Below, one piece after another: positions 2,300 to 19,950 of a stretch of DNA of 29,251 nt. The notes under the pieces are model-generated. The model saw nothing but the letters and a program-made list of their open reading frames with translations. It ran no database searches and had not been told where the DNA came from. The DNA comes from Deltaproteobacteria bacterium. Its GTDB lineage: Bacteria; JAUYMQ01. The translations under genes and the position numbers were made by a program. The stretch's first letter is position 1, and each line of letters starts with the position of its first letter. The stretch covers positions 1 to 29,251 of the forward strand of contig JAUYMQ010000387.1 in the NCBI GenBank assembly GCA_030698575.1, in the 5' to 3' direction.

Positions 2300-2339
2300 A
2301 ACAGTGCTGGAATCTTCGGATTCACGCCGGAGGAAAGGA

Positions 2340-2387
2340 TTTTCCCAGATCGGAAGGGAATGCTCTAAATTGAGAAAAGTTTTTCCC
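2340..2387 (+). promoter_or_regulatory. Putative enhancer: two inverted-repeat activator sites
   Basis: Site 1 is TTTTCCC (2340-2346) followed by GGGAA (2356-2360). Site 2 is GAGAAAAGTTTTTCCC (2372-2387), an imperfect palindrome of GRGAAAA, a 2-base spacer and TTTTCCC. They lie about 95-140 bases upstream of the sigma-54 promoter at 2479, a usual distance for enhancer sites of NtrC-type activators. The same pair, with the same 2-base spacer in site 2, occurs upstream of the PEP-CTERM operon at 11083. The binding protein is not in the window. PrsR, the response regulator of PEP-CTERM systems, is the natural candidate by inference. Confidence 0.55.
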
Positions 2388-2478
2388 AGGAATAAATGCT
2401 GACCGGGGAGGCAGCGGAATCGGCCTGGGTAACATGCTGAGATTACTAGATGTTTTTTAACCGATGAGAAGCGCAAGG

Positions 2479-2497
2479 TTGGCACGGAATCTGCTTT
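2479..2497 (+). promoter_or_regulatory. Sigma-54 (RpoN) -24/-12 promoter
   Basis: TTGGCACGGAATCTGCTTT matches the sigma-54 consensus (YTGGCACG-N4-TTGCW) with GG at 2481-2482 and GC at 2493-2494, exactly 12 bases apart. The -24 element is perfect; the -12 element has CTGC in place of TTGC. The predicted transcript start is near 2506, about 100 bases before the PEP-CTERM start codon. Sigma-54 promoters need an ATP-driven activator, consistent with the two inverted-repeat sites upstream. Confidence 0.75.
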
Positions 2498-2591
2498 GTA
2501 TTGGGCTGACCTCGGCAGAAGTGGCACTTGGAGGGCCGGGGTCGTTTGCGCTCAGTCTTTAAGAAACACCCCCCCCCGACGGCCGGTGGGG

Positions 2592-2607
2592 CATCCCTGG
2601 AGGGATG
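2592..2607 (+). promoter_or_regulatory. Hairpin hiding the ribosome site and start codon
   Basis: CATCCC (2592-2597), loop TGGA, GGGATG (2602-2607) form a perfect 6-bp stem. It contains the Shine-Dalgarno-like GGAGG (2599-2603) and the ATG at 2605. A second ATG at 2608 lies just outside it, with better spacing (4 bases) from GGAGG. The structure could slow translation initiation of the PEP-CTERM gene. Confidence 0.4.
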
Positions 2608-3423
2608 ATGCATCCGCAGTCCGCCACGGTGCGGCGGCGTCCATACCGCAAGCTGGCACTCGGCCTCTTATCAGCGGCAATCTTCGCGCTCCTGTTGCTG
2701 CCAGGCCAGGCGGATGCGCGGCTCTTTACCGTAATGGACCCATCCAACCCCAACCCGGCAGGCAGCACGGTCTATTTCAGCGATACTCTCGGGGGTACGA
2801 CCGGTTGTGACAATATTACGACAATCTGTAGCGGGCTGGTCGGGACAATCAACCCGGTGCTTTCAATTTCGGGGACCGTCGGGGACTACGTCGGTGCGGC
2901 GCCCAATTTTACCAACGACTTCTTCATCTTTGACTTGACGATTACCTCGGGCAGTTTGGACGCGCTCTCCGTCACGCTTCTGAGTGGCGCGACCACTTTT
3001 GGCGATCCGCTGACGACGGGGTACTTCGCCGACGCAGGCAAGCAGGCTCCCAACGGGAATGTGGTGCTATGGGGGAACCAGGAGATCCTGAACGAGCCGA
3101 ACTGCCAAAATATATTCGACCCATTCTGCGGTGGCACGAGTTCGTACAGCTTCAATCTGGATGGCGTGCAGCCTGGCTCCCAAGGCGTACCGGCGGGGTA
3201 TGTCCAAACGGGCGAGACGACGGTCCGCCTCTTTGCTGTGTTCGGCTCCCCCACTTCGCTTCTCGAGTACGACGCGGTGAGCTTCAGTCTCAGCCCAGTA
3301 GGTGGCGCAGACTTTACGGTTCAGGCCGAGATTATCCCCGAGCCGGGCACGATTCTCCTGCTCGGGTCGGGCTTGGTCGCCCTGGGGCTGGGTGAGAGAA
3401 GGCGGCGGCGCGGCCGCGGCTAA
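2605..3423 (+). CDS. PEP-CTERM sorting domain protein (sigma-54 controlled)
   Basis: This 272-residue exported protein has an N-terminal signal peptide (Arg-rich start, hydrophobic core about 18-33, cleavage probably near ADA 36-38). The body is rich in Gly, Thr, Ser and Asn, as is typical of low-complexity surface proteins. The C-terminus is a textbook PEP-CTERM signal: IPEPGT, a hydrophobic stretch ending in LVALGLG, then a run of arginines. Such proteins are cleaved and anchored or released by an exosortase at the inner membrane. The start is either ATG 2605 or ATG 2608; the second has better spacing from GGAGG. The gene is monocistronic between a sigma-54 promoter and a terminator at 3474-3495. 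The body of the protein has no recognised enzymatic motif, so its role in the matrix is unknown. Confidence 0.9.
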   Translation: MMHPQSATVRRRPYRKLALGLLSAAIFALLLLPGQADARLFTVMDPSNPNPAGSTVYFSDTLGGTTGCDNITTICSGLVGTINPVLSISGTVGDYVGAAPNFTNDFFIFDLTITSGSLDALSVTLLSGATTFGDPLTTGYFADAGKQAPNGNVVLWGNQEILNEPNCQNIFDPFCGGTSSYSFNLDGVQPGSQGVPAGYVQTGETTVRLFAVFGSPTSLLEYDAVSFSLSPVGGADFTVQAEIIPEPGTILLLGSGLVALGLGERRRRRGRG

Positions 3424-5474: not shown

Positions 5475-7490
5475 CTAGGCGCGCTTTCGCCTGCGCAGAG
5501 CCAGCCCCATGACGAGGACCAGGAGCGACAGCGTCAGGCCGCCGAGCGAGAGCGCCGGGATTTCGGGCAGGCTGTGGTTCAGACCGGGGTCGTTGACTGC
5601 GTAGGCGTCGATCGTGCCGGTCGTCGTCATCGTAGGGCCGTTTGTCCAGGCCGAGATGTACAGACTCGACAGGGTCGCGTCGCCGTTGATCACCGCGGCG
5701 ACCGCGGCGGCCACCTGGGCCGCCGTCATGCCGGGGGTAGTGACAATCTGCAGCATGACGCCGCTGATGGTGAAATCCACCGTTCCGCCCTCGGCAGATC
5801 CGTAGAAGGTCCAGTTCTCGGTAGGGGGCGCGCCGCAGTCGATGGTGCAACTGAGCTGCGTTTCCGCGCCTTCGCAGGCCAGATCGCCGCAGCAGTAGGG
5901 GGTGCTCGGCACGGTCGTGCACTGGTAACCCATGGTGCTGCAGCGGGTGTCGGTGCAGGGGACCGGATATTGCCCGCCGCCGTCACCGCAGCAGAAGCGC
6001 GATCCCGTGCTGCCGGTCTGCTTCCCGTTGCAGTCCATGGCGCATGAAACACAGTCCTCCCCGTCTCCCGCTTCGCAGATCAGATTGCCGCAGGTAGCCC
6101 CTCCGCCCGAGATACAGTCGCTCCCGCAGTTGTTGCAGTTCTCCAGCGGCTCGCAGGCCGCGTTCCCGCAGATCGGCGGCTCGCAGGGACCGATGTCCGT
6201 CATGTCGGCTTCTGTGAACATGTGCGGGTTGTGGAGCTTGTCACACTCGGCGGCGTTCAGGCCGTTGTTGCTCCCCGTGTTGCTGGCGTACATGATGTAC
6301 TGGCTGCCCGCGTTGTGGTTGAGGCCGGTGTTGTGGCCGTACTCGTGCGTCCAGAGGATGGCCTCGGTCGTCAGGGTCGTCTTGCGCACGAGCATCATGA
6401 AGTTGCCGCTGACCCCCGAGCACCCGATGATGTTCGTCCCGGGCGCCCCGCAGAAGTTGATGATGCGGACGACCTTGGCCCGGGCGGTGTCGACCAGCTG
6501 CACCGCGATCTGCTCGTTCAGGTCGTCGATGATGTCGAGCCCGTCGCCCGGCGTGCCAAAGGTTCCCCCCGTGCCCTTGCGGGCGAGCTTGTTGCAGCAC
6601 GCCACATCCGCCGCGAAATCCGAGACTCCAATGAGCACGTTCGCCGCGGCGAAGACCTGGTCGAGGCGCGTGTTCGTCATGGGATCGTTGTGGTCGACGT
6701 GATTGACGTAGTCCAGGTTGTGTTCATGCGCGGTCGGGGCGGTATCGGAAACCGCGCTGCTGGCACTGGCGATGGGCTCGCCGGGGGGGCCTGCCGGAGC
6801 GTCTTCGGGGCGCTCGAGAGACTGCAGCAGCTCCAGCGCCTGCTCCGCCGCCCGCTCGAGGGCTCGGCCTCGCGGAACAGGCGTCACGGCGCCGTCGGCG
6901 ATCTCCGTGATGCGGGCGCGGGCGCCTTCCTGGCGGGAGTAAGCGAGTCCCCGGAGCGCCATCTCCAGCAGATCATCCCGAAGCGCTTCCGGCCGCGATC
7001 CCCTCACGGCGGCCTGCGCGAGGACGCCACCGCCCCCCCCGTCCGCCGTCATGGTCAGCAATGCCTGGAACGCGGCGACGTGCCCCCGCGAGGCGATGTG
7101 CCCCAGCGCCTGAGGCGCGAGCAGGAGGGCGCGGTCTTCCTCGGGGATGCTGACGGAAGCGGGCGGATCGCGCAGGAGCGCGAGCAGGGCCTGCGTGGCG
7201 CGAGGCCCCCCCAGATAGGTCAGGAAGGCCACGACGTTGTCGCGCCGGGGAAACTCAGGATCGGCGAGAAGCTCGATGAGCGCCGGCACACCCGCCGGAC
7301 CGACTTCGGCTTGGGCAATCTCGGTGGTCATGCCGTGGATATAGTCCCGGAGAGCGGCCTCCCTCACGGCTTCGTCCGAAGCGGAGGCCGGCACGGGCGC
7401 CATCGCGAAAAGGGCGACGATCAGGAGTATTTGGGCGAGAACGCGACCGAGAGTCCTGATCCCTCTCGGGGGTGAGAGTGAGCTGGGCAT
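5475..7490 (-). CDS. Secreted HEAT-repeat zinc metalloprotease with Cys-rich repeats and IPTL-like C-terminal anchor
   Basis: This 671-residue protein is predicted to be exported and anchored. From the ATG at 7490 it has a signal peptide (about 1-37, ending PASA). HEAT-like alpha repeats follow at about 60-215 (PALIELLADP, RATQALLALLRDP, AAFQALLTM). The zincin core has HEYGHNTGLNH at 382-392, which is the full metzincin HExxHxxGxxH zinc site, followed by a probable Met-turn (YIMY, about 398-401). Cys-rich repeats of the type CGN-x2-CE-x3-NC-x2-CGSDC lie at about 440-560. The last 30 residues are PEIPALSLGG, a hydrophobic helix and RRRKRA. That tail resembles the IPTL-CTERM/VPxLS sorting signals rather than PEP-CTERM. 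An upstream in-frame extension exists, but the ATG at 7490 gives a proper signal peptide and follows the candidate promoter at 7530-7559. Substrates are unknown. Confidence 0.87.
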   Translation of the reverse strand: MPSSLSPPRGIRTLGRVLAQILLIVALFAMAPVPASASDEAVREAALRDYIHGMTTEIAQAEVGPAGVPALIELLADPEFPRRDNVVAFLTYLGGPRATQALLALLRDPPASVSIPEEDRALLLAPQALGHIASRGHVAAFQALLTMTADGGGGGVLAQAAVRGSRPEALRDDLLEMALRGLAYSRQEGARARITEIADGAVTPVPRGRALERAAEQALELLQSLERPEDAPAGPPGEPIASASSAVSDTAPTAHEHNLDYVNHVDHNDPMTNTRLDQVFAAANVLIGVSDFAADVACCNKLARKGTGGTFGTPGDGLDIIDDLNEQIAVQLVDTARAKVVRIINFCGAPGTNIIGCSGVSGNFMMLVRKTTLTTEAILWTHEYGHNTGLNHNAGSQYIMYASNTGSNNGLNAAECDKLHNPHMFTEADMTDIGPCEPPICGNAACEPLENCNNCGSDCISGGGATCGNLICEAGDGEDCVSCAMDCNGKQTGSTGSRFCCGDGGGQYPVPCTDTRCSTMGYQCTTVPSTPYCCGDLACEGAETQLSCTIDCGAPPTENWTFYGSAEGGTVDFTISGVMLQIVTTPGMTAAQVAAAVAAVINGDATLSSLYISAWTNGPTMTTTGTIDAYAVNDPGLNHSLPEIPALSLGGLTLSLLVLVMGLALRRRKRA

Positions 7491-7529
7491 CGTGTGCTGA
7501 ACGTCTCCGCTAGCGGTGCCCCCGTTCCA

Positions 7530-7559
7530 ACTATTCATCATCACTTGGCTTTTAGTCAA
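7530..7559 (-). promoter_or_regulatory. Candidate sigma-70 promoter of the metalloprotease gene
   Basis: Read on the minus strand, TTGACT (7559-7554) is followed after 18 bases by AATAGT (7535-7530). This is a 5/6 match to -35 and a 4/6 match to -10, about 40 bases upstream of the chosen ATG at 7490. The -35 overlaps a CTTG/CAAG inverted repeat. The rest of the 7491-7693 gap shows no gene. Confidence 0.4.
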
Positions 7560-7693
7560 GCGAGCCGGACAGGGGACCACTGAGCGACCGGAAGCGTCGC
7601 CGGGCGCGTTAACCATTGGATGGCGTGCGAGGAAGCCGGGATTCTTGTCGAGATTCCGCGCCCGAAGCTTTAGCGGGAAGGTAAAGATGCAGT

Positions 7694-9235
7694 TTAGCCT
7701 TTCTTCACCGCGGTTTCCAGGGCGCGCAGCTCCGGCGTCGGCCCGAGAGGCGTGATCGCTCGCAGCCGGGCGAGCATTCTGAGCGCGGTCGGATAGTCTC
7801 CCGCCTCGGCCGCGACGAGCCCGGCGTTCGCGAGGGCTTCTGGAAAGTAGCTATCCGCCTCCAGCGCACGGTCGAAAGCCTCCCGCGCGCCAGTGCCGTC
7901 ACCGGCTTCGCGTCTGAGGATCCCCAGCGCGTTCCAGCCCGGGGCGAAGCCCCGGTGGTCGCGCATCACGCCCTCGAGCGTTTCGCGCGCGGCTGCGCTG
8001 TCGCCGCCTGCCTGCAGGGCCATGGCCAGCGCATAACCGGCGTCCCGCTGATCCGGCGCCTCGGCGAGGAGGGCGTGGAGCTTCTTGATGCCCTCCGCGG
8101 GCCGCTCGACGCGAAGAGCCTCCGCCGCGCGTCCGGCCAGACGTCTCAGCCGAAATCGCCTGGCCAGTTGCAACCCGGCCTCTTCCGCTTTTCGCTCGAG
8201 GCGATCTGCTTTCTCCTCGAGTCCACTTGCGCGGGCGAAGCGGCTTTCGATCCAGAGAGCGATCGTCGCCGCTCGCTCGTCGTCCCTGGCGCCCGCCACC
8301 GCAATTCGATTCAGGAGCGCCAGCGTGCCTTCCCCGGGGCGGATGCTGCGCCGCCGGGCGCCCTCCATTTCGAGCCAGGGAACGTCGTCGGTGAGCAGCC
8401 GTCCTCCTCCCAGTGCTTCCCGCGCAGCCGACGCGCTTGCGATGCGCCTGAAAGCGATCTCGCCGAATTCCTCTTCGAGGCCGAGTTCGCGCAGGATCTC
8501 CCCGAGCCCTTTTCCGCCGGCCTTCGTGATCGGCATGCCCTGAGGCGTTGTCACCGGGCCGTCACTGCCGATCAGGAGCAGATTCTCGGCGCCCCAGAAC
8601 ACTCCCCCGTTCTCGAAGATCGAGAAGAATGTCCGCGCAATCGCGGCGGTCTGGTCGGCGCCGATGCGCGCGATGAGCACCCATTGCGCGGCGATGCCGC
8701 CCCGGCTCAGCGCGCCGCGCACCCGGGCGAAGTACTCGCGCGAGTAGAGCCCGGTCGCGCCGACGGACCAGGGATGCAGCGTATTGGCGACGACGACATC
8801 GTAGGCGCCCTGGTGGAGAGCGAGGTAGGCGCGACCGTCGGCGTGAATGATCCGCACGCGCGGATCCCCCGAACAGGTGACGCCGTTGTTTTCCGGTTCG
8901 AAGAAACGGCCCGCCGAGATGACCGATCGCGCAATCTCCACGCAGTCGATCCGCTCGAGCGGGAATCGCGCGGCTGTCCCCAGGGTGATACCCGAGCCGA
9001 GGCCCACCTCGAGGAAGCTCCTGGCCCCGGGTTTCAGCGCCAGGGGAACCAGGGCCAGAAGCACTTCCGTCTCGAGAGCGTCCCAGGCGGTGCCCGCCTC
9101 CGGATCCCCGTCGACGATGAGATCGCGTCCCACCGGCGACCGCACTACCGCGACGCTCGCCTGCCGTCCATCGTCGACGTGAACGACCCGCCGGCCGGGG
9201 ATCGCGGTGGGTGGACGCAATGAAGGCGCCGCCAC
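7694..9235 (-). CDS. Spermidine-synthase-like domain with C-terminal TPR repeats (second half of a split gene)
   Basis: This 513-residue product is read from GTG 9235. Residues 15-200 match the spermidine synthase/Rossmann methyltransferase fold. FLEVGLGSG (74-82) is the nucleotide-binding loop, DCVEI (97-101) the acidic strand end, ADGRAYL (132-138) a second binding motif, and HPWSVGATGLYSREYF (154-169) resembles membrane-fused spermidine synthase relatives. The usual D-[ST]-[ST]-D-P active-site segment reads ANTLHPW instead, so true aminopropyl transfer is doubtful. Residues about 375-505 form three or four TPR repeats. It lies in the same frame as the membrane-domain gene just upstream (10477-9245), separated only by a TGA and three codons. 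It is therefore best seen as the second half of one fused protein. No good ribosome site precedes the GTG; expression would need reinitiation or readthrough. Confidence 0.8.
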   Translation of the reverse strand: MAAPSLRPPTAIPGRRVVHVDDGRQASVAVVRSPVGRDLIVDGDPEAGTAWDALETEVLLALVPLALKPGARSFLEVGLGSGITLGTAARFPLERIDCVEIARSVISAGRFFEPENNGVTCSGDPRVRIIHADGRAYLALHQGAYDVVVANTLHPWSVGATGLYSREYFARVRGALSRGGIAAQWVLIARIGADQTAAIARTFFSIFENGGVFWGAENLLLIGSDGPVTTPQGMPITKAGGKGLGEILRELGLEEEFGEIAFRRIASASAAREALGGGRLLTDDVPWLEMEGARRRSIRPGEGTLALLNRIAVAGARDDERAATIALWIESRFARASGLEEKADRLERKAEEAGLQLARRFRLRRLAGRAAEALRVERPAEGIKKLHALLAEAPDQRDAGYALAMALQAGGDSAAARETLEGVMRDHRGFAPGWNALGILRREAGDGTGAREAFDRALEADSYFPEALANAGLVAAEAGDYPTALRMLARLRAITPLGPTPELRALETAVKKG

Positions 9236-9244
9236 GAGCGCGAT

Positions 9245-10477
9245 TCACAGCACCACCAGCGCAGCGCGCCCCCATCCCTGGCGCGGTCGGACCGATCCCC
9301 GCAAGAGGAAGACGGCCCCGAGGAGGCCGTTCAGGCCGGCGCAGAACAGCAGACTCTTCAGTAGCCCCAGGGCGGGAAGGAGCAGAAAGGGGGCCAGGAG
9401 GGAGCCGGCGATGCCGCCCGCCGTGTTGAGCGCGCTGACAGTGCCGAAGGCTCTTCCCAGCGTCCCGAGATTTCCCACCGAGAGTCGCACCAGATAAGGA
9501 AAGGCGCCGCCCATGAAAATCGCCGGCGGAAAGACGGACAGCGCGATGAGCCCGCCCGTCCACCCCGAGAGTCCTGCCGCCGGAAGCGCGTAGTCGGGAA
9601 CGAACCAGATCAATTCCGCAGCGATGGCGAGGGCGGCGGCGCTCTCGATGAGGCCCAGTTCGAGCTCGGGCTGCGCCGTGCGGCCGGCGCGATGACCGAA
9701 GATCGCCGTTCCGAGTGCTAGGCCGGCGAGAAGGAGAGCGAGCACGCAGCCCCAGGCATAGAGCGTCGATCCGAGGAGCAGGGCGGCTGCGCGCGCCGCC
9801 AGGACCTCGTAGACGAGCGTTGCGATGCCCGCGGCGAAGGCGGCCGCGAGCGGCATCGTCGGAATTCGAAAAGGCGGTTCGCTGGAAGACGCGGGATGCT
9901 TCATCGGCCGCGCGAGAAAGAACGCGGCCGCGCCCAGCAACAGTGCCGTCACGCCGGCCGTGGAGAGAGTGGCGCGCAGCCCCCAGGCGGGGATGGCTGC
10001 AATCGCCACGCCGACTCCCAGCACCGCCCCGGCCGTGTTCGCGCCGACGATCCAGCCGACCCCGGCCGCCGTGCGCGCGATCTCGCGCACGCCCGCGCGC
10101 AGCAGCGCGGGCGCGGTTCCTCCCAGGAGAAACGCGACGGGAAAGAGGGCGGCGGCCGCGATCGCGAAGCGCGCGGGAGGAGGCAGGCCGAGCAGTGGAG
10201 ACGCGGCGAGCCACTGGAGCAGCGCGGGGGAGGCAGCTGCGAGCGCCCCGGCGGCGCCCTCGAGGATTCCAAACAAACGCAGCGGCGCGCGCACCCGATC
10301 GGCCCGAGCGCCGAAGTAGCGCGCGCCCGCCGCCAGCCCTCCGAAGAAGGCGACCAGCACGATCGAGATGGCTTCGATCTGGCTCCCGAGGAAGAGGGCG
10401 ACCTCTCGTGTCCAGACGACCTGATAGACGAGCGCCGTGACGCCCGAGAGAAAGGCAAAAAGGGTATAGGTCAGCAA
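9245..10477 (-). CDS. Polytopic membrane domain of a fused MFS/spermidine-synthase-type protein (first half of a split gene)
   Basis: This 410-residue protein is strongly hydrophobic, with roughly ten to twelve predicted helices. The opening (AFLSGVTALVYQVVWTREVALFLGS) is the standard start of the membrane domain in fused MFS/spermidine synthase proteins, which supports the TTG at 10477 as the start codon; an in-frame stop lies just upstream. GGTAPALLR, GANTAGAVLG and a second copy of the pattern (LVYEVLAARAAALLLGS) show the internal duplication of this family. It ends in RAALVVL, then TGA at 9247-9245. The next codons in the same frame read IALVAAPSL, so the stop cuts a transmembrane helix in half. 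The transported or modified substrate is unknown. Confidence 0.82.
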   Translation of the reverse strand: MLTYTLFAFLSGVTALVYQVVWTREVALFLGSQIEAISIVLVAFFGGLAAGARYFGARADRVRAPLRLFGILEGAAGALAAASPALLQWLAASPLLGLPPPARFAIAAAALFPVAFLLGGTAPALLRAGVREIARTAAGVGWIVGANTAGAVLGVGVAIAAIPAWGLRATLSTAGVTALLLGAAAFFLARPMKHPASSSEPPFRIPTMPLAAAFAAGIATLVYEVLAARAAALLLGSTLYAWGCVLALLLAGLALGTAIFGHRAGRTAQPELELGLIESAAALAIAAELIWFVPDYALPAAGLSGWTGGLIALSVFPPAIFMGGAFPYLVRLSVGNLGTLGRAFGTVSALNTAGGIAGSLLAPFLLLPALGLLKSLLFCAGLNGLLGAVFLLRGSVRPRQGWGRAALVVL

Positions 10478-11982: not shown

Positions 11983-12702
11983 ATGGGGAGCTTCAATATG
12001 AGACGCGTTCTGTTATTCGTGATGTGCCTGGGAGTGGCGATGCTGGCGGCGCCCGAGGGCGCCTGGGCTGATTTCGTCGATATTCGCGCTTCGGACGTGA
12101 CCACCAGCTTCACGAGCGGCGTGAACATTTTCACGACCTCAACCGGAGGGGAGGCGACAACGGTCTCTCCGAGCCCCGCGTCGCTTACCGGGAAATCGCT
12201 CCACATCGACATGGTGATGAGCGGATCCGAGACGGCGAACACGACGGGCACGCGGTTCGTGGGCACCACTGACGGCCTTGCCGACGTCCGGATCACCGAC
12301 GGCGCAACGCTGCTGCTGGCCCTCGACATCAGTTTCATCGACGTCACCTCGGCCTCCGGCAACTTCGGCATCTTCACGGTCGTGAACTTCGGCTCTCACG
12401 ATCTCAGCTTCGGCACGAACAAGCTGACGGTGGTAGGCGGGACGCTTGCGGACGATTTCGGCGGCGTGGGAAGCTTGGCGAACCTCTTCATGAACATGAC
12501 TTTCGTGCGCACCTACGTGCCCGGAACGGTGTTCTCCTCCAGCTTCTCAACCACAGCTGCGACCTTCGACCTCTACATCGACCCGCCGCCCGCCGCCAAT
12601 CCCGAGCCCTCCAGCCTCGCCCTGATGGGCGGCGGACTAGCCCTGCTGGCGCGCAGGAAGCTGCGCAAGAAGCTGCGCAAGAAGGGTTCAGTAAAGCACT
12701 GA
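11983..12702 (+). CDS. PEP-CTERM sorting domain protein (paralog A)
   Basis: This 239-residue exported protein starts at ATG 11983 with AAGGAG six bases upstream; ATG 11998 is an alternative. The signal peptide has the core VLLFVMCLGVAMLAA and ends near AWA. The mature region begins DIRASDVTTSFTSG and contains GKSLHIDMVMSGSE, GTRFVGTTDG and SFIDVTSASGNFG. These blocks recur in the next gene at about half identity, so the two are a tandem duplication. The C-terminus has NPEPSSLALMGGGLALLARR followed by an unusually long Lys/Arg tail with a repeated LRKK unit. It is the second gene of the operon. The protein is probably a beta-rich surface or matrix component; its exact role is unknown. Confidence 0.9.
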   Translation: MGSFNMRRVLLFVMCLGVAMLAAPEGAWADFVDIRASDVTTSFTSGVNIFTTSTGGEATTVSPSPASLTGKSLHIDMVMSGSETANTTGTRFVGTTDGLADVRITDGATLLLALDISFIDVTSASGNFGIFTVVNFGSHDLSFGTNKLTVVGGTLADDFGGVGSLANLFMNMTFVRTYVPGTVFSSSFSTTAATFDLYIDPPPAANPEPSSLALMGGGLALLARRKLRKKLRKKGSVKH

Positions 12703-12731: not shown

Positions 12732-12747
12732 GTGACCGGGTGGTCAC
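12732..12747 (+). other. Intercistronic hairpin before the third PEP-CTERM gene
   Basis: GTGACC (12732-12737), loop GGGT, GGTCAC (12742-12747) pair perfectly. It lies in the 64-base gap between paralogs A and B, just before the GGGGAG ribosome site of the latter. Confidence 0.4.
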
Positions 12748-12766
12748 AACGGGGAGTCGGGGCTCC

Positions 12767-13450
12767 ATGAGGAGTCGCGTCCTTTGCGTTCTGGGCTTCG
12801 TAGGCGCCATCCTCGCGCCCGCCAGTTCCACCGCATCCATTATCCTGATCCATGGCACCGACGTGACGAGCAACTTCACGGTCGGGTCGCCGGGTATTTT
12901 CAATACTGCCACCGGCGGGGACGGCCTCACGATCAGCCCGCCGACGCCGTCTATTCTTGCCGGCAAGTCGCTCCACATCGAAATGCAAATGCAAGGCGGC
13001 GAGACGGCCGGCACGGTCGGGACGCGGTTCGTAGGCACCCCGGACAGCCTTCCGGACCTCTAGATCTGGGATGGCAGCGGTCCGCTTCTGACGCTGAACA
13101 TCAACTTCATCGATGTCACGTCGATCGCGAATCAGTTTTCCCTCATCAGCCTTATCAATTTCGGGAGTTTCGACCCGCAGTTCGGCACAAACGAAATGGT
13201 GATCACGGGTGGGAGCCTCGCCAGCAGCTTCGGTGGCGTGGGAACGAAGGTAAGCGGGATGTTTCACGTGACCATCGTCGCATCGCTCGTCCCGGAACAG
13301 TTCTTCTCGAACAGCTTCAACACCTCATCGGCGACTTATAATCTGTACGTCCAGCCGCCGGTCCCAGAACCTTCGACGCTGGCGCTCCTGGGAGCCGGCC
13401 TCATGGGCCTCGCTCTTCGGGGCAGGAAACAGCGGGGGCGGAGCGCCTAG
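12767..13450 (+). pseudogene. PEP-CTERM paralog B interrupted by an in-frame TAG
   Basis: From ATG 12767 (GGGGAG upstream) the frame codes for a signal peptide (VLCVLGFVGAILAPASSTA) and the same blocks as paralog A: GTDVTSNFTVG, GKSLHIEMQMQGGE, GTRFVGTPDS. At 13061-13063 a TAG stops translation after residue 98. The same frame then continues undamaged to 13450 through NINFIDVTS, NFGSFDPQFGTNE and GGVG to a perfect PEP-CTERM tail (VPEPSTLALLGAG, helix, RGRKQRGR). Without the TAG the product would have about 227 residues. The aligned position in paralog A is Arg in ADVRITDG. One nonsense change (for example CAG to TAG) would explain it. The upstream fragment would be secreted without an anchor. 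Recent pseudogene, readthrough or sequence error are all possible. Confidence 0.8.
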
Positions 13451-13477
13451 AAGCGGATGGCAATTGCGGCACGGCGC

Positions 13478-13522
13478 GGGAGGCGGTCGGAGCTCGCTGC
13501 GAGCCCCGGGCCTCCCTTTTTT
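13478..13522 (+). terminator. Rho-independent terminator of the PEP-CTERM operon
   Basis: GGGAGGC (13478-13484) pairs with GCCTCCC (13510-13516), followed immediately by six T (13517-13522). Inside is a second stem GCTCG/CGAGC. It lies 28 bases after the last PEP-CTERM stop codon and separates that operon from the dockerin/cohesin operon. Confidence 0.8.
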
Positions 13523-13556
13523 GTGGCCGCAAGGCGCCCCAGGGGAGTGAAAAACG

Positions 13557-13569
13557 GTATTATGAATAC
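13557..13569 (+). promoter_or_regulatory. Palindrome GTATT-ATG-AATAC, possible operator/-10 region
   Basis: A perfect 5-bp inverted repeat with a 3-base centre lies 57 bases upstream of the dockerin gene, in an otherwise GC-rich stretch. TATTAT inside it (13559-13564) matches 5/6 of a -10 box, but no -35 box is visible 16-18 bases upstream. It could be an operator over a weak promoter for the dockerin/cohesin operon. Confidence 0.3.
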
Positions 13570-13625
13570 GGAGGGTCCTTCTGGGGGGGGAGTTTCCGGG
13601 CCCTGGACTGGAATGGAACCGCGCA

Positions 13626-15464
13626 ATGTTTGCGAACTTCAGGGTTGGAACGGATCGGGGCGTCCGGCCGCGACCCCCTCGACTTGGTGTGGCAGCGCTC
13701 ACGATCGCCCTGCTGCTTCTGGGCGGGGCCGGGCCGGCGTGGCCCCAGGTCCTGGGAGACCTGAACGGTGACGGCGTCATCGACGCTGTTGACGTCGGCT
13801 TGCTGGTTACCGTCTACGCCACAGACTCCGCTGATCCGGGTTACGACGCCGGCGGAGATCTGAATAGCGACGGGTTGATCAACTTCCAGGATCTGGCGAT
13901 CCTGTCAGGCAACGCGGGGCAGACCCCCACGGCCGTGGCGCCGGCGACTGTTTTCCTCACCGCGAACGACATTCCCGACGAATTCAACGACGTGCTGGCC
14001 GTTCCGGAGAGCGGTTTCTCCCTCGACTTCCGCATTGCCAACCCTCCGGGCGCGCCGCTCATCGATCTTCCGTCGCTCAGCGTCATGGCAACGCAACCCG
14101 CCGGACTCCTCTCGGCCGGCGCCGAGCTTGCGCCGCTCTTCACCAAAACCCCCTCGGGCGGATCCTGGCGCGTGAGCGCCGTCGAAGCGTTTCCGCCAGT
14201 GAACGTGTTCTTCTCCTTCTCGATCCAGAACCAGAAAGGGGATGTCTTCTCGATCCCCTCCTACGGCCTGGCTTCCCGTGAATGGAAGATCACCCCGCCC
14301 GTCGGCGCCGGACAGAAGGTCTTCCTCGATTTCGATCAGGACCGCGATGCCGTGGGCGGGAACGACTTCGACGAGGATCTGAGAGCCTTCGGGCTGGGCT
14401 CGCTGGTTTTTCCTTCGCTGAGCGCCCTTGTCCGGACAGACGTTGTCGTGCGCATCCTCGAGATCATCCGGTCCTTCTACGGGCAGGATCCCGCCGGAAC
14501 TTTCCTTCCCGATTCGGCGACGGTGGCTTTCAGCGATCTCTTCACGCTGGGCGCGACGCGAATATGCGTGGGCGGCGAGGACCCCCTGGGGGGAACGGCA
14601 TTCGGTCTCACCCCCTTCGACATGAACAACGCGGCCACGGGCTCCGACACCTGTTTCATAGGATCACCCTGGGGCGTGTTTCCGCGGGAGTTCCTCTTCT
14701 TCCAGGCGAACTCGAACTTCCAGGCCGTCTTCAATCCCCTGCGGGCTTCGGCCGGCGGCACGCCGGTAGGGGAGGATCCGCTGGACGCCACCGTGCTCGC
14801 GTCCGGCTTCGATCCGGGCTCGGCCCTGCCGGCCGAACTGGCGCGGTGGAACACGATCAACGCGGGGGTAGAGACCTTTGCGCGCTTCGCCGGGGTGATC
14901 GCGGCGCATGAAAACGGACACACGCTCGGCCTCACGGCCGCCACCGCGGCCCCGGCGGGCCTCTGGGGCGACGGTGCATTTCACAACATGACATCGATGG
15001 GCGGCACACCCGCGGAAAACTGGATGATGAACAGCGGCGGCTCTTTCAACTACGAGGAGATCGTGGGGGAGGCGGGTGAACCGCTGCCGCGCTTCCGGGA
15101 TCTCAGTGATGCCTATCTGCGCAACGAACTGATGCTCAAGAGCGGCATCACGGGCCCTCTGCAGCCCGCCCCGACCCTGACGAACGTCCTGCCCAATCCG
15201 GCGATCTACAGCGCGGGGACAGTCAATATCACCGTCTTCGGTTCCGGGTTCTTCGGGACGCCGGACGTGCTCCTGCTCAAGGACGGGTTCCCGCCGCGCG
15301 TCGTGCAGAACGTTCTGCTCGGCATGCCCCCCACCTGCCCGGTGGGGACGTGCATCACCGGCACGCTGGTCCAATTCCAGGTCGGGACCGGGCTGTTCGA
15401 CGTGCTCGTCGAAACCCCGGACGATCAGTCGGTGGTCATCGAGGACCATCTGACGGTCCAGTAG
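13626..15464 (+). CDS. Secreted dockerin-domain zincin-like protein with C-terminal IPT/TIG-like domain
   Basis: This 612-residue protein has an export signal (hydrophobic core about 20-36 after an Arg-rich start). Residues 43-98 form a type I dockerin-like domain with two calcium-binding repeats: DLNGDGVIDAVD (45-56) and DLNSDGLINFQD (78-89), each with the D-x-N-x-D-G-x-[IN] pattern. A long middle region ends in HENGHTLGL (428-436), which has the zincin HExxH plus the metzincin Gly. The expected third zinc ligand at position 438 is Ala; a later His (FHNM) or another residue would have to serve. NWMMNSGG looks like a Met-turn. The last 95 residues (LTNVLPNPAIYSAG onward) resemble an IPT/TIG immunoglobulin-like domain. 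No C-terminal anchor is present. It is the first gene of an operon that also encodes a cohesin, so it is a natural docking partner. The ribosome site is weak. Confidence 0.82.
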   Translation: MFANFRVGTDRGVRPRPPRLGVAALTIALLLLGGAGPAWPQVLGDLNGDGVIDAVDVGLLVTVYATDSADPGYDAGGDLNSDGLINFQDLAILSGNAGQTPTAVAPATVFLTANDIPDEFNDVLAVPESGFSLDFRIANPPGAPLIDLPSLSVMATQPAGLLSAGAELAPLFTKTPSGGSWRVSAVEAFPPVNVFFSFSIQNQKGDVFSIPSYGLASREWKITPPVGAGQKVFLDFDQDRDAVGGNDFDEDLRAFGLGSLVFPSLSALVRTDVVVRILEIIRSFYGQDPAGTFLPDSATVAFSDLFTLGATRICVGGEDPLGGTAFGLTPFDMNNAATGSDTCFIGSPWGVFPREFLFFQANSNFQAVFNPLRASAGGTPVGEDPLDATVLASGFDPGSALPAELARWNTINAGVETFARFAGVIAAHENGHTLGLTAATAAPAGLWGDGAFHNMTSMGGTPAENWMMNSGGSFNYEEIVGEAGEPLPRFRDLSDAYLRNELMLKSGITGPLQPAPTLTNVLPNPAIYSAGTVNITVFGSGFFGTPDVLLLKDGFPPRVVQNVLLGMPPTCPVGTCITGTLVQFQVGTGLFDVLVETPDDQSVVIEDHLTVQ

Positions 15465-15508
15465 CATCGTATTCCGCGGGAGGCCGCGGTTGGAGAAAGG
15501 CTCGAGAA

Positions 15509-16243
15509 ATGGTTCGGCATGCAGCGACAGCGAGAGGCGCGCACGGCGGATGGGACGGGGCTGCACGCGCGTTTCGTCTGACGGCCCTCGTGGTCCTCGT
15601 GGTGCTGCTCGCCGCTTTCGCCCCCCGCGGCTCGGAGTCCATCGGCTATCTGGCCGAGACCTCGGCGCTCGTGGTCCTGGGCACCGTGCACGAAGCGCCG
15701 GGTAAGAGCCCGGCCGCGGCGTCCACGGGGACCGTCCTCGCGCTGAAGATCGAACGGGTGCTCAAGGGCAGGGCGCCGAAGGGACCGCTCGTGATCTGGA
15801 TTCCCTCCCACGAGAATCCGTCCGCTCTCGAGGCGGGACAGCGCGCCATCCTGTTCCTTTCGCCCGTGCCCGATCTCCCCTTCTACAGGCGCGCGGGCGT
15901 GGCCGGCAGGCGGCTCTGGCGAATCGACGGTGCTGCGGCCGGCGTGCTCGATCCCGCGCTGGAGGCGCCGGTGAAGGAAATGGTCGTGGCGCTCCGTTCG
16001 GGGGAGAATTCGGACGTGCTGAACACTCTCGTTCATCAGGCGGGAAATTCAGCGCCGCGCGTTCAGGAAGATGCCATCGCCGATCTCGAGCGCCGCTGCC
16101 AGGCCGGCTGCGCGCTTGATGCCGCCGGGAGAGCCAGGCTCCGTGCCCTCGGCCTGGCGGCGCCCGCGGGGTCGGCTCTCCGAAAGCAGTTCCTGCGGGC
16201 CGCGGGAGAGAATTCGGGCCGGCCCGCCGCGGGGGGGCCGTGA
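15509..16243 (+). CDS. Secreted protein of unknown function between dockerin and cohesin genes
   Basis: This 244-residue protein starts at ATG 15509 with GAAAGG about 8 bases upstream. A signal peptide or N-terminal helix spans about 22-42 (LTALVVLVVLLAAFAP). The following domain (about 48-150) has a beta-barrel-like pattern: ALVVLGTVHEAP, TVLALKIERVLKG, PLVIWIPS and QRAILFLSP. This 'GTV ... V-LKG ... G-x-x-x-LFL' pattern is seen in many secreted bacterial proteins of unknown role. The C-terminal third is Ala/Arg-rich and helical. The gene lies 44 bases after the dockerin gene, and its TGA overlaps the cohesin gene ATG (TGATG at 16241-16245), so the three are one translationally linked operon. 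Accessory or inhibitor roles for the protease are possible but only a guess. Confidence 0.75.
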   Translation: MVRHAATARGAHGGWDGAARAFRLTALVVLVVLLAAFAPRGSESIGYLAETSALVVLGTVHEAPGKSPAAASTGTVLALKIERVLKGRAPKGPLVIWIPSHENPSALEAGQRAILFLSPVPDLPFYRRAGVAGRRLWRIDGAAAGVLDPALEAPVKEMVVALRSGENSDVLNTLVHQAGNSAPRVQEDAIADLERRCQAGCALDAAGRARLRALGLAAPAGSALRKQFLRAAGENSGRPAAGGP

Positions 16244-17295
16244 TGGCGCGACGGCATCGCCTGTCGGCGGGAATGCTTGCGCTCTTTCTTGCTGCGCCGC
16301 TGTGGGCTTCTCTACCTGCGCGGACGGTGCAGGCACAGGTCACGCTCGAGTTCTTCCCCAATCCGGCGGCCTTCTTTTTCGCCAACGGCGTCCTCGTCAC
16401 GATGTACGTGCAGGTCAACACGACTTCCCCGATCCAGGCCTACGACGTGGACGTGACTTACGACCCCACGATTCTGAAAGCCCTCGTGGTATCGGGTCTG
16501 GATCTCTTCGACGGCGACGATGCGCTCGTTCGTCCGGCCGAGGTCGACAACCTTTCGGGCGAGGTGCGGGGCATCGTCGATTCGAACCTGGGCCCGCCGG
16601 TGGGCCCGGGCCAGCTCTACGTGGCGAGCGTCGTCTTTCGCGTTCTGAAACCGGGATCCCTCATGCTCGGCTTCAACGCCTTCACGCCGACCAGGGGCTT
16701 CGCAGACGCCGCGGGCAACGCGCTTTCCGGCCAGGCAGTTCAGACCGCCGTTACGATTCACTCGCTGGCCGACATGGATCTCGACGGATTGTCGTCGCAG
16801 TACGAGCAGATCATCACGCAGACAAATCCGATGCTGCGCGACAGCGACGGCGACGGAACTTCGGACGGAATGGAGGATAACGACGGCGACGGTGTCACGA
16901 ACGCCGCGGAGTACACCAAGGGGACCTTTGCCAACACGCAGGATACCGATGCCGACGGGTTCCTCGACGGCGCGGACAACTGCCCGCACACCTACAACCC
17001 GTCCCAGGCGGACATCGATGCCGATAACAGGGGGAACGCCTGCGATCCGGACAACGACAACGATCTGCTCGACGACGTGGATGAGCCGGCGCTGGGTCTG
17101 GATCCATCGGACCCCGACACCGACGATGATGGTTTTCCCGATGGCGTGGAGATCGCCAGGGGGACCGATCCGCTCGATCCGGACTCGTTTCCGCTGGATG
17201 CGCCCGCCATGGGGCCGCTGGGAAGCGCCCTTCTGGTGATCTTGCTCGCCGCGCTCGCATCCCGTAGGATCCGCCAATCTTCGCGCCCGTCCTGA
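16243..17295 (+). CDS. Cohesin-domain surface protein with thrombospondin-3-type repeats and C-terminal anchor
   Basis: This 350-residue protein has a signal peptide cleaved near VQA (29-31). Residues about 33-172 look like a cohesin: VTLEFFPNP, VTMYVQVNTTSPIQAYDVDVTYDPTILKAL, SGEVRGIVDSN, LYVASVVFRVLKPG and LGFNAFTPT follow the cohesin strand order and its conserved Y-D-P. Residues about 177-316 are Asp/Asn-rich calcium-binding thrombospondin type 3 repeats (DSDGDGTSDG, DNDGDGVTN, DTDADGFLDGADNCP, DTDDDGFPDG). The last 32 residues have APAMGPLG, a hydrophobic helix and RRIRQ. This is a three-part sorting signal similar in layout to PEP-/IPTL-CTERM but with a different motif. The ATG overlaps the previous stop codon; a GTG immediately before is an alternative. 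Cohesins bind dockerins, and a dockerin protein is encoded in the same operon, so this looks like a surface receptor. Confidence 0.85.
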   Translation: MARRHRLSAGMLALFLAAPLWASLPARTVQAQVTLEFFPNPAAFFFANGVLVTMYVQVNTTSPIQAYDVDVTYDPTILKALVVSGLDLFDGDDALVRPAEVDNLSGEVRGIVDSNLGPPVGPGQLYVASVVFRVLKPGSLMLGFNAFTPTRGFADAAGNALSGQAVQTAVTIHSLADMDLDGLSSQYEQIITQTNPMLRDSDGDGTSDGMEDNDGDGVTNAAEYTKGTFANTQDTDADGFLDGADNCPHTYNPSQADIDADNRGNACDPDNDNDLLDDVDEPALGLDPSDPDTDDDGFPDGVEIARGTDPLDPDSFPLDAPAMGPLGSALLVILLAALASRRIRQSSRPS

Positions 17296-17355
17296 GCGCG
17301 CCCCTGAATCACCCCGCCCCCTGATTGCCAGCCCCGCCCGGGCCTCGTCGGAACC

Positions 17356-19950
17356 ATGGTCCGACAGACCCTCGCACTCAGCACGGCCGCGCTCCTGGCG
17401 GGCATCGCCGCCGGTGATGCAGCGCCCTTTCTCTCGCTTCCCGGACTGATCGGCGCGCCGCTCTGCGGGCTGCTGGCGCTTCGGCTCCGCCGCCCCGCCA
17501 GCGTTCTCGGCGCGCTGATACTCGGTGCCTTCCTGGCAGGCGCGGCGTTTCCCGCCCGATGGACTGCGCCACTGCCCGCCTCTGATCTCGCGCGCATCCT
17601 TTGTGAGACGCCTTTTGAATGCGGCGCGCCCGTCGACGCGGCCATCGAGGGCGAACTTGCCGGCACGCCGGTCAGTGACAACGGCGGCGCGCGCCTTCTC
17701 GTGGACGTAAAAGAGATCGCACTTCCGGCGGGCCACCGGAGGGCAAGCGGTCGTCTGATCGTCTATCTGGCCGGCGAGGTTCCCTCGAAGCGCGCGGGAG
17801 ATCGGTTGCGGTTTCGCGCGAAGCTTCGGGAGCCGCGGCGTTACCACAACCCCGGCAGCGCCGACCGGCCGCGCGCGCTCGCGCGCAAGGGCATCCGGCG
17901 AGTGGCCTTCGTCGAATCGCCGGAAGCCCTCGTCTGGCTCGCCGGACGGGATTGGCGGCCGTCCCCGCTGGCGGGGGCACGCCGCGCCCTGCGCGCGCTT
18001 CTTCGCAGGGAGGGCGGGAGCGCCTCGCCGCTGCTCGGTGCGCTCCTCCTGGGGGAGCGAGGCGAGCTCTCGCCTGCGCTGCGTGAGTCCTACGCGCGCG
18101 CCGGCGTGGCGCACGTGCTTGCCGTCTCGGGGCTGCACGTTGCCCTGGTTGCGCTGTCGGCCGGCGCCCTGACCCGACGGCTATTGAAAGGCGCGCCCGG
18201 GCTGGCGGCCGGGGGCGGCGCGGCCCGGGGCGGAATCGTCGTGGGACTGGCTGCCGCCTGGGGCTATGCGTTCCTGGCCGGGGCTGCCGATCCGGCGATG
18301 CGGGCGGCCCTCATGGCATCGGCGCTCGCCGGAGGCGCGCTGCTTCTCCGGCGTGCTGACGCCTGGCACGCCCTCTGGCTTGCCGCGGGCTGCCTGGCGG
18401 TCGCCGACCCTGCGCGCGTCTTCGAGGCGGGTGTACAGCTCTCCTTCGCGTCGGTCGGCGGGCTTCTCTGGTGCTGGCGCGCGGGGGCGCTCCCGGGGAG
18501 ACGCCCCCCGGGAGCCTGGCGGCGAGCGGGCAGGTGGCTAGCGGGCATGGCGTTTGCCTCGATCGTTGCGACGCTGGCGACACTTCCTATCCAGGCCAAC
18601 GTGTTCGGCAGGGTCTCCCTGGTGGCGCCGCTCGCAAACCTGGTCGTCCTGCCGCTCCTTGGCGGGCTGGTGTTGCCGCTCCTGCTCCTGGCGGCGGCCT
18701 GCCATCCGGTCTGGACGGGCGCCGCGGCGCTCCTCGTCCGCGCGGCCGCACATCTCGCTAACGCCGCCTCCGCCGCGGCGACGTGGTTCGGCGCCGCTCC
18801 CTGGTCCACCTTTTCCCTCCCTCCTTTCACGCACATCGATACCGCCGCCTTCTATCTTGTGGCGGCCGCGATCCCGCTCCTGCTCCGGGGCGGCGGGCGC
18901 GGCGCTCGCGCGCTTCTCGGCGCGGGCCTGGTGACGAGCCTGGGCGCCGCGGCCCTGCATGCGTGGAACCTGCAGCCGCCTTCTGCACTATGTGCGCGCT
19001 TCTTCGATGTCGGGCAGGGCGATGCGGCGCTCATCGAGACGCCGGAGGGAGCAAGGATGCTGGTCGATGCGGGTCCCGCCTTCACGCTTCCGGGCGGCAG
19101 GCGGTTCGATGCGGGCGAGCGTGTCCTGGGCCCCGCGCTGCGCGCCGGTTGGATTCGCAGACTCGACGTCCTCGCTGTGACGCATCCCGACGCCGATCAC
19201 GCCGGCGGCGCCCGGGCAGTGCTCGAGGGGTTCCGCGTGGGGGAGGTATGGATACCGGCGGGCGCCGAGCAGGCGGGGGGGATTGCATCGCTGCTGGCAG
19301 CGGCACGCCGGCAGCACGTTCCCGTGCACGCCCTCGCGCGCGGCGACCTGCGGCGCCTTGCCGGCGGCACGCGAGTGGAGGTGCTCGGGCCGCCGCGTGA
19401 ACGTTCTCGTCGAAATGCGCCATCGGGTGAGCTCCCGCGGCGCGGGGGCTGGAACGATCGCTCGCTCGTGTTGAGAGTGAACTCGGGTGGTGCCCGGCTG
19501 CTGCTTGCCGGGGACATCGAGTTTGACGGCGAGCAAGAGCTCATCCGGGCCGGAGGCGATCTCCGCGCGGACGTGTTGAAGGTGCCCCACCACGGGAGCG
19601 ATACATCCTCCCACGCCGAGTTTCTGGCGGCCGTCCGGCCCCGGGTCGCCGTCATCTCGGCCGGCGCCTGGAACCGCTTCGGGTTTCCGGCGCCCGGCGC
19701 ATTCCGTCGCCTGGAGAGGGCGGGCGCCCGCGTTTTCCGGACCGACCGCCACGGCGCGATCACGGTCACCCTCGGCGCAGGCAGGCCTGGCGGGGCCGAT
19801 TTCTGTCACCCGGGAGCAGGGGAAATTTTCGTTCAACGGCAGCGGTCGATCAGCCGTAAAGGAAGGAGAACAGGCGTATTGTTCAATTGCGCCCCGCCTG
19901 CGGGCGAGGCACGGCGAGGGGGAAAAACCCCTGAGGGAGGAGGCTCGTGA
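17356..19950 (+). CDS. comEC: ComEC/Rec2 DNA-uptake channel protein
   Basis: ComEC is the inner-membrane channel for single-stranded DNA uptake in natural transformation. The 864 residues show N-terminal helices, an OB-like soluble region (about 95-195), then the competence domain with the family motif HVLAVSGLHVAL starting at H253. The C-terminal metallo-beta-lactamase-type domain has DVGQGDA (551-557), THPDADH (609-614/615 region), a GD in LLLAGDIE, and VPHHGSD (H745, H746), the usual metal-ligand set. After the domain end (AITVTLGAG) there is an extra tail of about 55 polar residues rich in Arg and Gly that I do not recognise. The ATG at 17356 lies 60 bases after the cohesin gene. The stop overlaps the next start by four bases (GTGA), so the diguanylate cyclase is translationally coupled. 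The gene appears intact. Confidence 0.94.
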   Translation: MVRQTLALSTAALLAGIAAGDAAPFLSLPGLIGAPLCGLLALRLRRPASVLGALILGAFLAGAAFPARWTAPLPASDLARILCETPFECGAPVDAAIEGELAGTPVSDNGGARLLVDVKEIALPAGHRRASGRLIVYLAGEVPSKRAGDRLRFRAKLREPRRYHNPGSADRPRALARKGIRRVAFVESPEALVWLAGRDWRPSPLAGARRALRALLRREGGSASPLLGALLLGERGELSPALRESYARAGVAHVLAVSGLHVALVALSAGALTRRLLKGAPGLAAGGGAARGGIVVGLAAAWGYAFLAGAADPAMRAALMASALAGGALLLRRADAWHALWLAAGCLAVADPARVFEAGVQLSFASVGGLLWCWRAGALPGRRPPGAWRRAGRWLAGMAFASIVATLATLPIQANVFGRVSLVAPLANLVVLPLLGGLVLPLLLLAAACHPVWTGAAALLVRAAAHLANAASAAATWFGAAPWSTFSLPPFTHIDTAAFYLVAAAIPLLLRGGGRGARALLGAGLVTSLGAAALHAWNLQPPSALCARFFDVGQGDAALIETPEGARMLVDAGPAFTLPGGRRFDAGERVLGPALRAGWIRRLDVLAVTHPDADHAGGARAVLEGFRVGEVWIPAGAEQAGGIASLLAAARRQHVPVHALARGDLRRLAGGTRVEVLGPPRERSRRNAPSGELPRRGGWNDRSLVLRVNSGGARLLLAGDIEFDGEQELIRAGGDLRADVLKVPHHGSDTSSHAEFLAAVRPRVAVISAGAWNRFGFPAPGAFRRLERAGARVFRTDRHGAITVTLGAGRPGGADFCHPGAGEIFVQRQRSISRKGRRTGVLFNCAPPAGEARRGGKTPEGGGS

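Follow-up and report, generated by a model that had tools for sequence, protein, structure and literature searches.

Does a cohesin encoded two genes downstream of a dockerin serve as its docking partner at the cell surface? The question is raised by three genes in the genome of a Deltaproteobacteria bacterium (GCA_030698575.1, contig JAUYMQ010000387.1), within a stretch of 29,251 nt that was analysed as a whole and is called the window below. The first gene, P1, encodes a protein with a dockerin and a zinc-protease motif; the second, P2, encodes an orphan protein; the third, P3, encodes a protein with a cohesin, thrombospondin type 3 (TSP3) repeats and a hydrophobic tail. We put the probability at roughly 60% that P1 docks one-to-one on P3, in which case P3 would be a dedicated surface receptor for P1. 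This reading is preferred because both modules are real and no other cohesin or above-cut-off dockerin was detected in the genome, because P1 has no visible anchor and P3 has a membrane-type tail, and because separately encoded cohesin and dockerin neighbours are enriched in other bacteria. The features of the locus are as follows.

13626-15464, + strand: P1, with signal peptide, dockerin, uncharacterised region, zincin-motif domain and IPT/TIG-like end (open reading frame list, Pfam, codon pattern of guanine plus cytosine, G+C)
13752-13904, + strand: type I dockerin domain, P1 residues 43-93, with two calcium loops (PF00404; 2y3n_B)
14907-14921, + strand: HENGH zinc-protease motif, P1 residues 428-432 (sequence; weak PDB match)
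15165-15260, + strand: start of a possible IPT/TIG-like C-terminal region of P1 (NCBIfam NF058597, E 0.014, weak and below cut-off)
15509-16243, + strand: P2, a predicted exported or membrane-bound orphan protein of 244 residues (no family, no convincing relative)
16241-16245, + strand: TGATG overlap of the P2 stop and the P3 start, read as translational coupling (sequence)
16243-17295, + strand: P3, with signal peptide, cohesin, TSP3 repeats and hydrophobic tail (open reading frame list, Pfam)
16336-16734, + strand: cohesin domain of P3 (independent profile, family profile, fold matches)
16765-17187, + strand: TSP3 calcium repeats of P3, a putative stalk (PF18884, 26.7 bits, cut-off 25)
17200-17292, + strand: C-terminal tail of P3, PAMGPLGSALLVILLAALASRRIRQSSRPS (similar tails on the 5475-7616 metalloprotease and on protein L057 of contig C135)

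The dockerin of P1 and the cohesin of P3

A type I dockerin is recognised by two F-hand repeats with calcium ligands at loop positions 1, 3, 5, 9 and 12, together with the Pfam curated score. P1 carries such a domain. The ligands are kept in both loops (DLNGDGVIDAVD and DLNSDGLINFQD), and PF00404 (Dockerin_1) matches residues 43-93 with 26.7 bits in the protein scan, above the cut-off of 22.9, and with 31.3 bits in the genome scan. Among PDB sequences, phmmer finds the best solved relative in 2y3n_B, a dockerin of Bacteroides cellulosolvens (E 4.5e-9). The placement of the domain directly after the signal peptide is unusual, since dockerins in related loci are mostly C-terminal; another N-terminal dockerin was seen at locus L207.

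The remainder of P1 is less well defined. P1 is likely a zincin-type protein, a prediction made because HENGH is present at residues 428-432, and residues 389-455 give a weak PDB match to MMP-8 (E 0.12). The full metzincin signature HExxHxxGxxH/D is not found in P1, where the sequence reads HENGHTLGLTA and the third ligand at +10 is absent; His 456 may stand in for it. No C-terminal anchor was seen on inspection of P1. A single-sequence structure model of the full protein was useless (mean predicted local distance difference test score, pLDDT, 31.5).

P3, a protein of 350 residues, carries a real, divergent cohesin. A profile of other bacterial cohesins, from which the window had been left out, matches positions 11-110 with 40.8 bits (E 7.3e-11). 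A nine-sequence family profile that includes the P3 domain, and is dominated by the other members, matches solved cohesins with E-values down to 1.5e-22. Fold comparison gives the same assignment. A model of the domain, built from a five-sequence alignment, has middling confidence (mean pLDDT 57.5, predicted TM-score 0.54) and leans toward a cohesin, as the four helper sequences are cohesins, a bias from which the sequence profile is free. With this model the top 37 Foldseek rows are all cohesins, as are all 28 PDB entries that VIA-align returns at Z 8.0-9.8, among them the Archaeoglobus fulgidus cohesin 2xdh (Z 8.0).

A preliminary description of the locus had proposed a dockerin-like domain on a zincin-like P1, and thrombospondin-3-type repeats; the domain and the repeats are borne out, and HENGH agrees with a zincin. 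Its cohesin-like domain is upheld by the independent profile and the fold matches, although not by the PF00963 profile (see below).

The P3 tail consists of PAMGPLG, a hydrophobic stretch and arginines. Its likeness to the ends of a metalloprotease elsewhere in the window (5475-7616) and of a TSP3 protein on another contig (C135, L057) suggests a signal that the host genome uses for sorting or anchoring. The tails of these two proteins match IPTL-CTERM below the cut-off, and the host genome has two exosortase genes. Within the window there is a contrast: the metalloprotease has its own tail, whereas P1 has a dockerin and no tail. The membrane-sorting tail of the preliminary description thus stands as to its make-up and its likeness to other tails of the genome, and fails as to a curated sorting-signal match.

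The product of the 5475-7616 gene (- strand) is secreted and is the second metalloprotease of the window; it has HEAT-like repeats and the canonical motif HEYGHNTGLNH.

Proposed pairing of P1 with P3

One line of evidence for the pair is copy number. The host genome measures 4.13 Mb and is 92% complete, in a bin rated 4.6% contaminated. A genome-wide search returned one cohesin at E <= 1, that of P3, and one above-cut-off dockerin, that of P1, two genes apart; with this single cohesin, no multi-cohesin scaffoldin was detected. With an estimated 3,900 genes or so, the chance that two unrelated single genes lie this near each other on one strand is about 1 in 2,000.

Weaker dockerin-like stretches occur elsewhere in the genome. 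On contig C407 (L059), an open frame of 784 residues at 977-3331 encodes a secreted protein that resembles a beta-propeller, contains TSP3 repeats and ends in a degenerate dockerin-like repeat. On contig C259 (L005), a two-repeat, planctomycete-like dockerin is joined to a PEP-CTERM tail. Both stretches score below the Pfam cut-off. The G+C content of contig C259 is 0.586, against about 0.66 for the other contigs read, and the contig may be a contaminant of the bin.

A second line of evidence comes from other bacteria. Cohesins are present in 92 of 386 diverse genomes, and 80 cohesin neighbourhoods from 57 of the genomes were read, every open frame being scored with cohesin and dockerin profiles. 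Ten of the 80 cohesins share their open frame with a dockerin, and 13, from 10 genomes, have one in a same-strand open frame within 500 bases. Within 6 kb, the nearest separate dockerin shares the strand of the cohesin in 16 cases and lies on the opposite strand in two. With genes called by a simple greedy rule, dockerins are found on 11 of 103 same-strand next-door genes and on 6 of 438 other nearby genes (odds ratio 8.6, p = 3e-5). The enrichment persists with one locus per genome (5/72 versus 3/293, odds ratio 7.2, p = 0.009) and with the uncultured genus g86 left out (7/86 versus 6/366, p = 0.005). As support for pairing it is moderate but consistent, and not overwhelming.

The clearest example of such neighbours is the genus g86, with genomes G226 (JAQUKH01, bacterium isolate STD1_102) and G085. 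Of its 13 dockerin genes, 8 directly adjoin a short gene for a lipobox protein with a single cohesin (L167, L168, L182, L183, L203, L205, L209, L210). The dockerin partners include a subtilase (L203) and an M4/M36-type metallopeptidase (L210), the others being RCC1, VWA or PKD proteins. The same arrangement is found in G356, from another family of the same phylum (L162). Because of the g86 and G356 gene pairs, it can be said that an anchored cohesin and a secreted dockerin protein in adjoining genes recur with a different kind of anchor. A narrow query of the genome_contigs collection with related cohesins returned only JAQUKH01, which is G226 itself and hence no independent replication.

In the proposed mechanism, P3 would be exported and anchored in the membrane through its C-terminal tail, and its TSP3 repeats would bind calcium and keep the N-terminal cohesin off the membrane. 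P1 would be exported without an anchor, its dockerin lying at the mature N-terminus. The dockerin would then plug into the P3 cohesin in a calcium-dependent manner, so that the zincin-type domain, if active as a protease, would act at the cell surface. P2 would be co-expressed and is perhaps an accessory protein. It is from gene neighbourhood that we infer binding. The proposal that the zincin-like P1 is held at the surface by an anchored P3 cohesin goes back to the preliminary description; it is now partly supported, by the reality of the modules, their single copy and the enrichment of neighbours.

Several results weigh against such a pair, the simple gene-calling rule among them. No dockerin was found at the threshold used near the cohesin in 55 of the 80 loci, non-cellulosomal cohesins often standing alone, and the weaker dockerin-like stretches of the host genome soften the single-copy argument slightly. 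No relative of the trio was found, in a collection without a second genome of the phylum. The protease part of P1 has no relatives in the 386 diverse genomes, the genome_contigs collection or plasmids, and P2 has only weak matches in the 386 genomes (E 0.002-0.006), poorly aligned and chance-like. No IPTL-CTERM, MYXO-CTERM or PEP-CTERM model matches the P3 tail at E <= 1. Finally, against PF00963 the P3 cohesin scores 15.3 bits in the protein scan and 16.6 in the genome scan, below the cut-off of 24.1; this value was set by a curator and describes no structural feature, and by it alone the domain would count as a divergent cohesin candidate.

The low PF00963 score, and a model of only 57.5 pLDDT whose aligned helpers are four cohesins, might suit a different beta-sandwich, for instance a carbohydrate-binding module, with a superficial likeness to cohesins. 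This is very improbable in view of the window-free sequence profile (E 7e-11 over positions 11-110) and of top-ranked structure matches that are cohesins throughout. Even with both modules real, they need not be mutual partners: the cohesin could be an adhesion or matrix module and the dockerin a calcium-stabilised module with another partner, the two having become neighbours through a surface-protein cluster. The many cohesins without a nearby dockerin fit this picture, as do the other weak dockerin-like stretches and a window rich in surface proteins, with several PEP-CTERM genes and a second metalloprotease. The enrichment of same-strand next-door genes in unrelated genomes speaks against it, and so does the finding of the genome's one cohesin and one above-cut-off dockerin at the same locus; on balance we hold it to be rather unlikely. 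A third alternative accepts the contact and multiplies the clients, P3 being a hub for several dockerin proteins, of which P1 is one, in a minimal proteolytic complex of cellulosome-like kind. Candidates for further clients are the C407 protein, with its TSP3 repeats and degenerate terminal repeat, and the two-repeat dockerin of C259; since both lie under the Pfam cut-off and the second, by its G+C content, may be a contaminant, a hub seems improbable. One-to-one docking of P1 on P3 is the preferred reading.

P2 and the surrounding genes

P1 and P2 are separated by a gap of 44 bases, and a GGAG-type site precedes P2. The overlap of P2 with P3 agrees with the coupling named in the preliminary description, and the codon-position G+C pattern of all three genes resembles that of adjacent genes. 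A ComEC gene begins 60 bases 3' of P3 on the same strand, and the operon may therefore extend into it. No sigma-70-type promoter was found in 13300-17500, where terminator-like sites are no more frequent than in shuffled sequence.

P2 starts at the ATG at 15509, with an N-terminus that would suit either a signal peptide or a membrane anchor. Of the secreted unknown protein first described between P1 and P3, the orphan thus stands, and secretion is one of two options. P2 has no Pfam family above the cut-off, no PDB sequence match and no plasmid match. The idea that it is a TIMP-like protease inhibitor came from a sequence pattern, was supported by no tool and was dropped.

The surrounding genes encode UvrC, PEP-CTERM proteins, the divergent metalloprotease, spermidine-synthase-like proteins, ComEC, a GGDEF protein, two tRNA synthetases and flavin adenine dinucleotide (FAD) oxidoreductases. 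As described earlier, no glycoside hydrolase is near: none was found among the window genes scanned, and no genome-wide search for such enzymes was made. The reading frame of a PEP-CTERM gene at 12740-13448 (+ strand) is interrupted by a TAG codon at 13061-13063. Over its first part the gene shares 49% identity with the adjoining PEP-CTERM gene 11983-12702, which suggests a tandem duplication whose second copy is broken, unless the stop is a sequencing error. At 7694-10477 (- strand) lie two adjoining spermidine-synthase-like genes, one encoding an MFS-type membrane protein and the other a synthase domain with TPR repeats.

Comparison with known cohesin-dockerin systems

The closest published idea is the "planctosome" of Nemodlikiaceae, freshwater Planctomycetes, a hypothetical model (PMC6461901). 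It shares with the locus a protein that is tethered to the surface and combines TSP3 repeats with a cohesin, a zinc endopeptidase bound by cohesin-dockerin contact, and the lack of a role in cellulose breakdown; for the present locus the tethering, the contact and the last point are predictions. The TSP3 repeats and cohesin of such an anchored protein are both found on P3, whose anchoring is probable from its tail. The planctosome anchor has 2,210 residues with lamin-tail and P-domains, and is accompanied by an adaptor with a dockerin and a cohesin (PMC6461901). In contrast, P3 is a 350-residue single-cohesin protein with a hydrophobic tail and a partner two genes away; Pfam finds no lamin-tail or P-domains on it, and, with one cohesin detected in the genome, there is no such adaptor.

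Ca. Stygibacter, of the Cloacimonadota, has a cellulosome-like peptidase complex, with tandem cohesins on a scaffoldin of 3,755 residues and C-terminal dockerins on several enzymes (PMC8542988). Secreted peptidases with dockerins and a surface-held cohesin protein are the common points; the P1-P3 locus differs in that a single cohesin stands against a single dockerin, which is N-terminal.

Outside cellulosomes, cohesins and dockerins of archaea do bind each other (PMC9705933, PMC9012536), a point in favour of docking here, and the binding of the non-cellulosomal pair of Archaeoglobus fulgidus (2xdh) has been used experimentally (PMC9705933). The likeness to P1-P3 lies in this non-cellulosomal setting, and the difference in the archaeal host. 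We know of no zincin or TSP3 repeats in the A. fulgidus pair. Many cohesin and dockerin modules are also found in anaerobic methanotrophic (ANME) archaea and their partners (PMC9012536, PMC10553843).

The g86 and G356 pairs resemble P1-P3 in that a membrane-anchored single cohesin lies beside a secreted dockerin protein, some of these being peptidases. Unlike P1-P3, their anchor is an N-terminal lipobox, the dockerin is usually C-terminal, and no TSP3 repeats were noted.

Other arrangements were seen among the genomes read. In the phylum of G226 and G356, secretin-like proteins carry a C-terminal cohesin (L163, 4426-6384; L244, 4009-5964), as probably does L124 (5917-7866), which was read at its cohesin end only; at L163 a standalone cohesin gene follows directly. 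In genome G039 (L066, L073, L074, L075), cohesin and dockerin are parts of a single polypeptide that continues into a C-terminal sorting-type domain, possibly a chain-forming or self-docking design.

With clostridial cellulosomes the locus shares the module types; it differs in that no multi-cohesin scaffoldin was detected, and no glycoside hydrolase among the window genes scanned. The locus is not a cellulosome; it is a smaller, one-socket version of known non-cellulosomal designs.

Many genomes are known to encode cohesin and dockerin modules outside cellulosomes, mostly without an assigned partner, and gene adjacency offers concrete partner predictions for them. We suggest, tentatively, that uncultured bacteria may generally display proteins at the surface through dedicated operons, each pairing one anchored single cohesin with one secreted protein that bears a dockerin, where others rely on covalent anchors; this trio would be the TSP3-stalked, tail-anchored form of the device. 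If confirmed, such pairs would offer new orthogonal cohesin-dockerin pairs for protein engineering, and would add a modular, calcium-dependent way to tether secreted proteins, proteases among them, to the cell surface.

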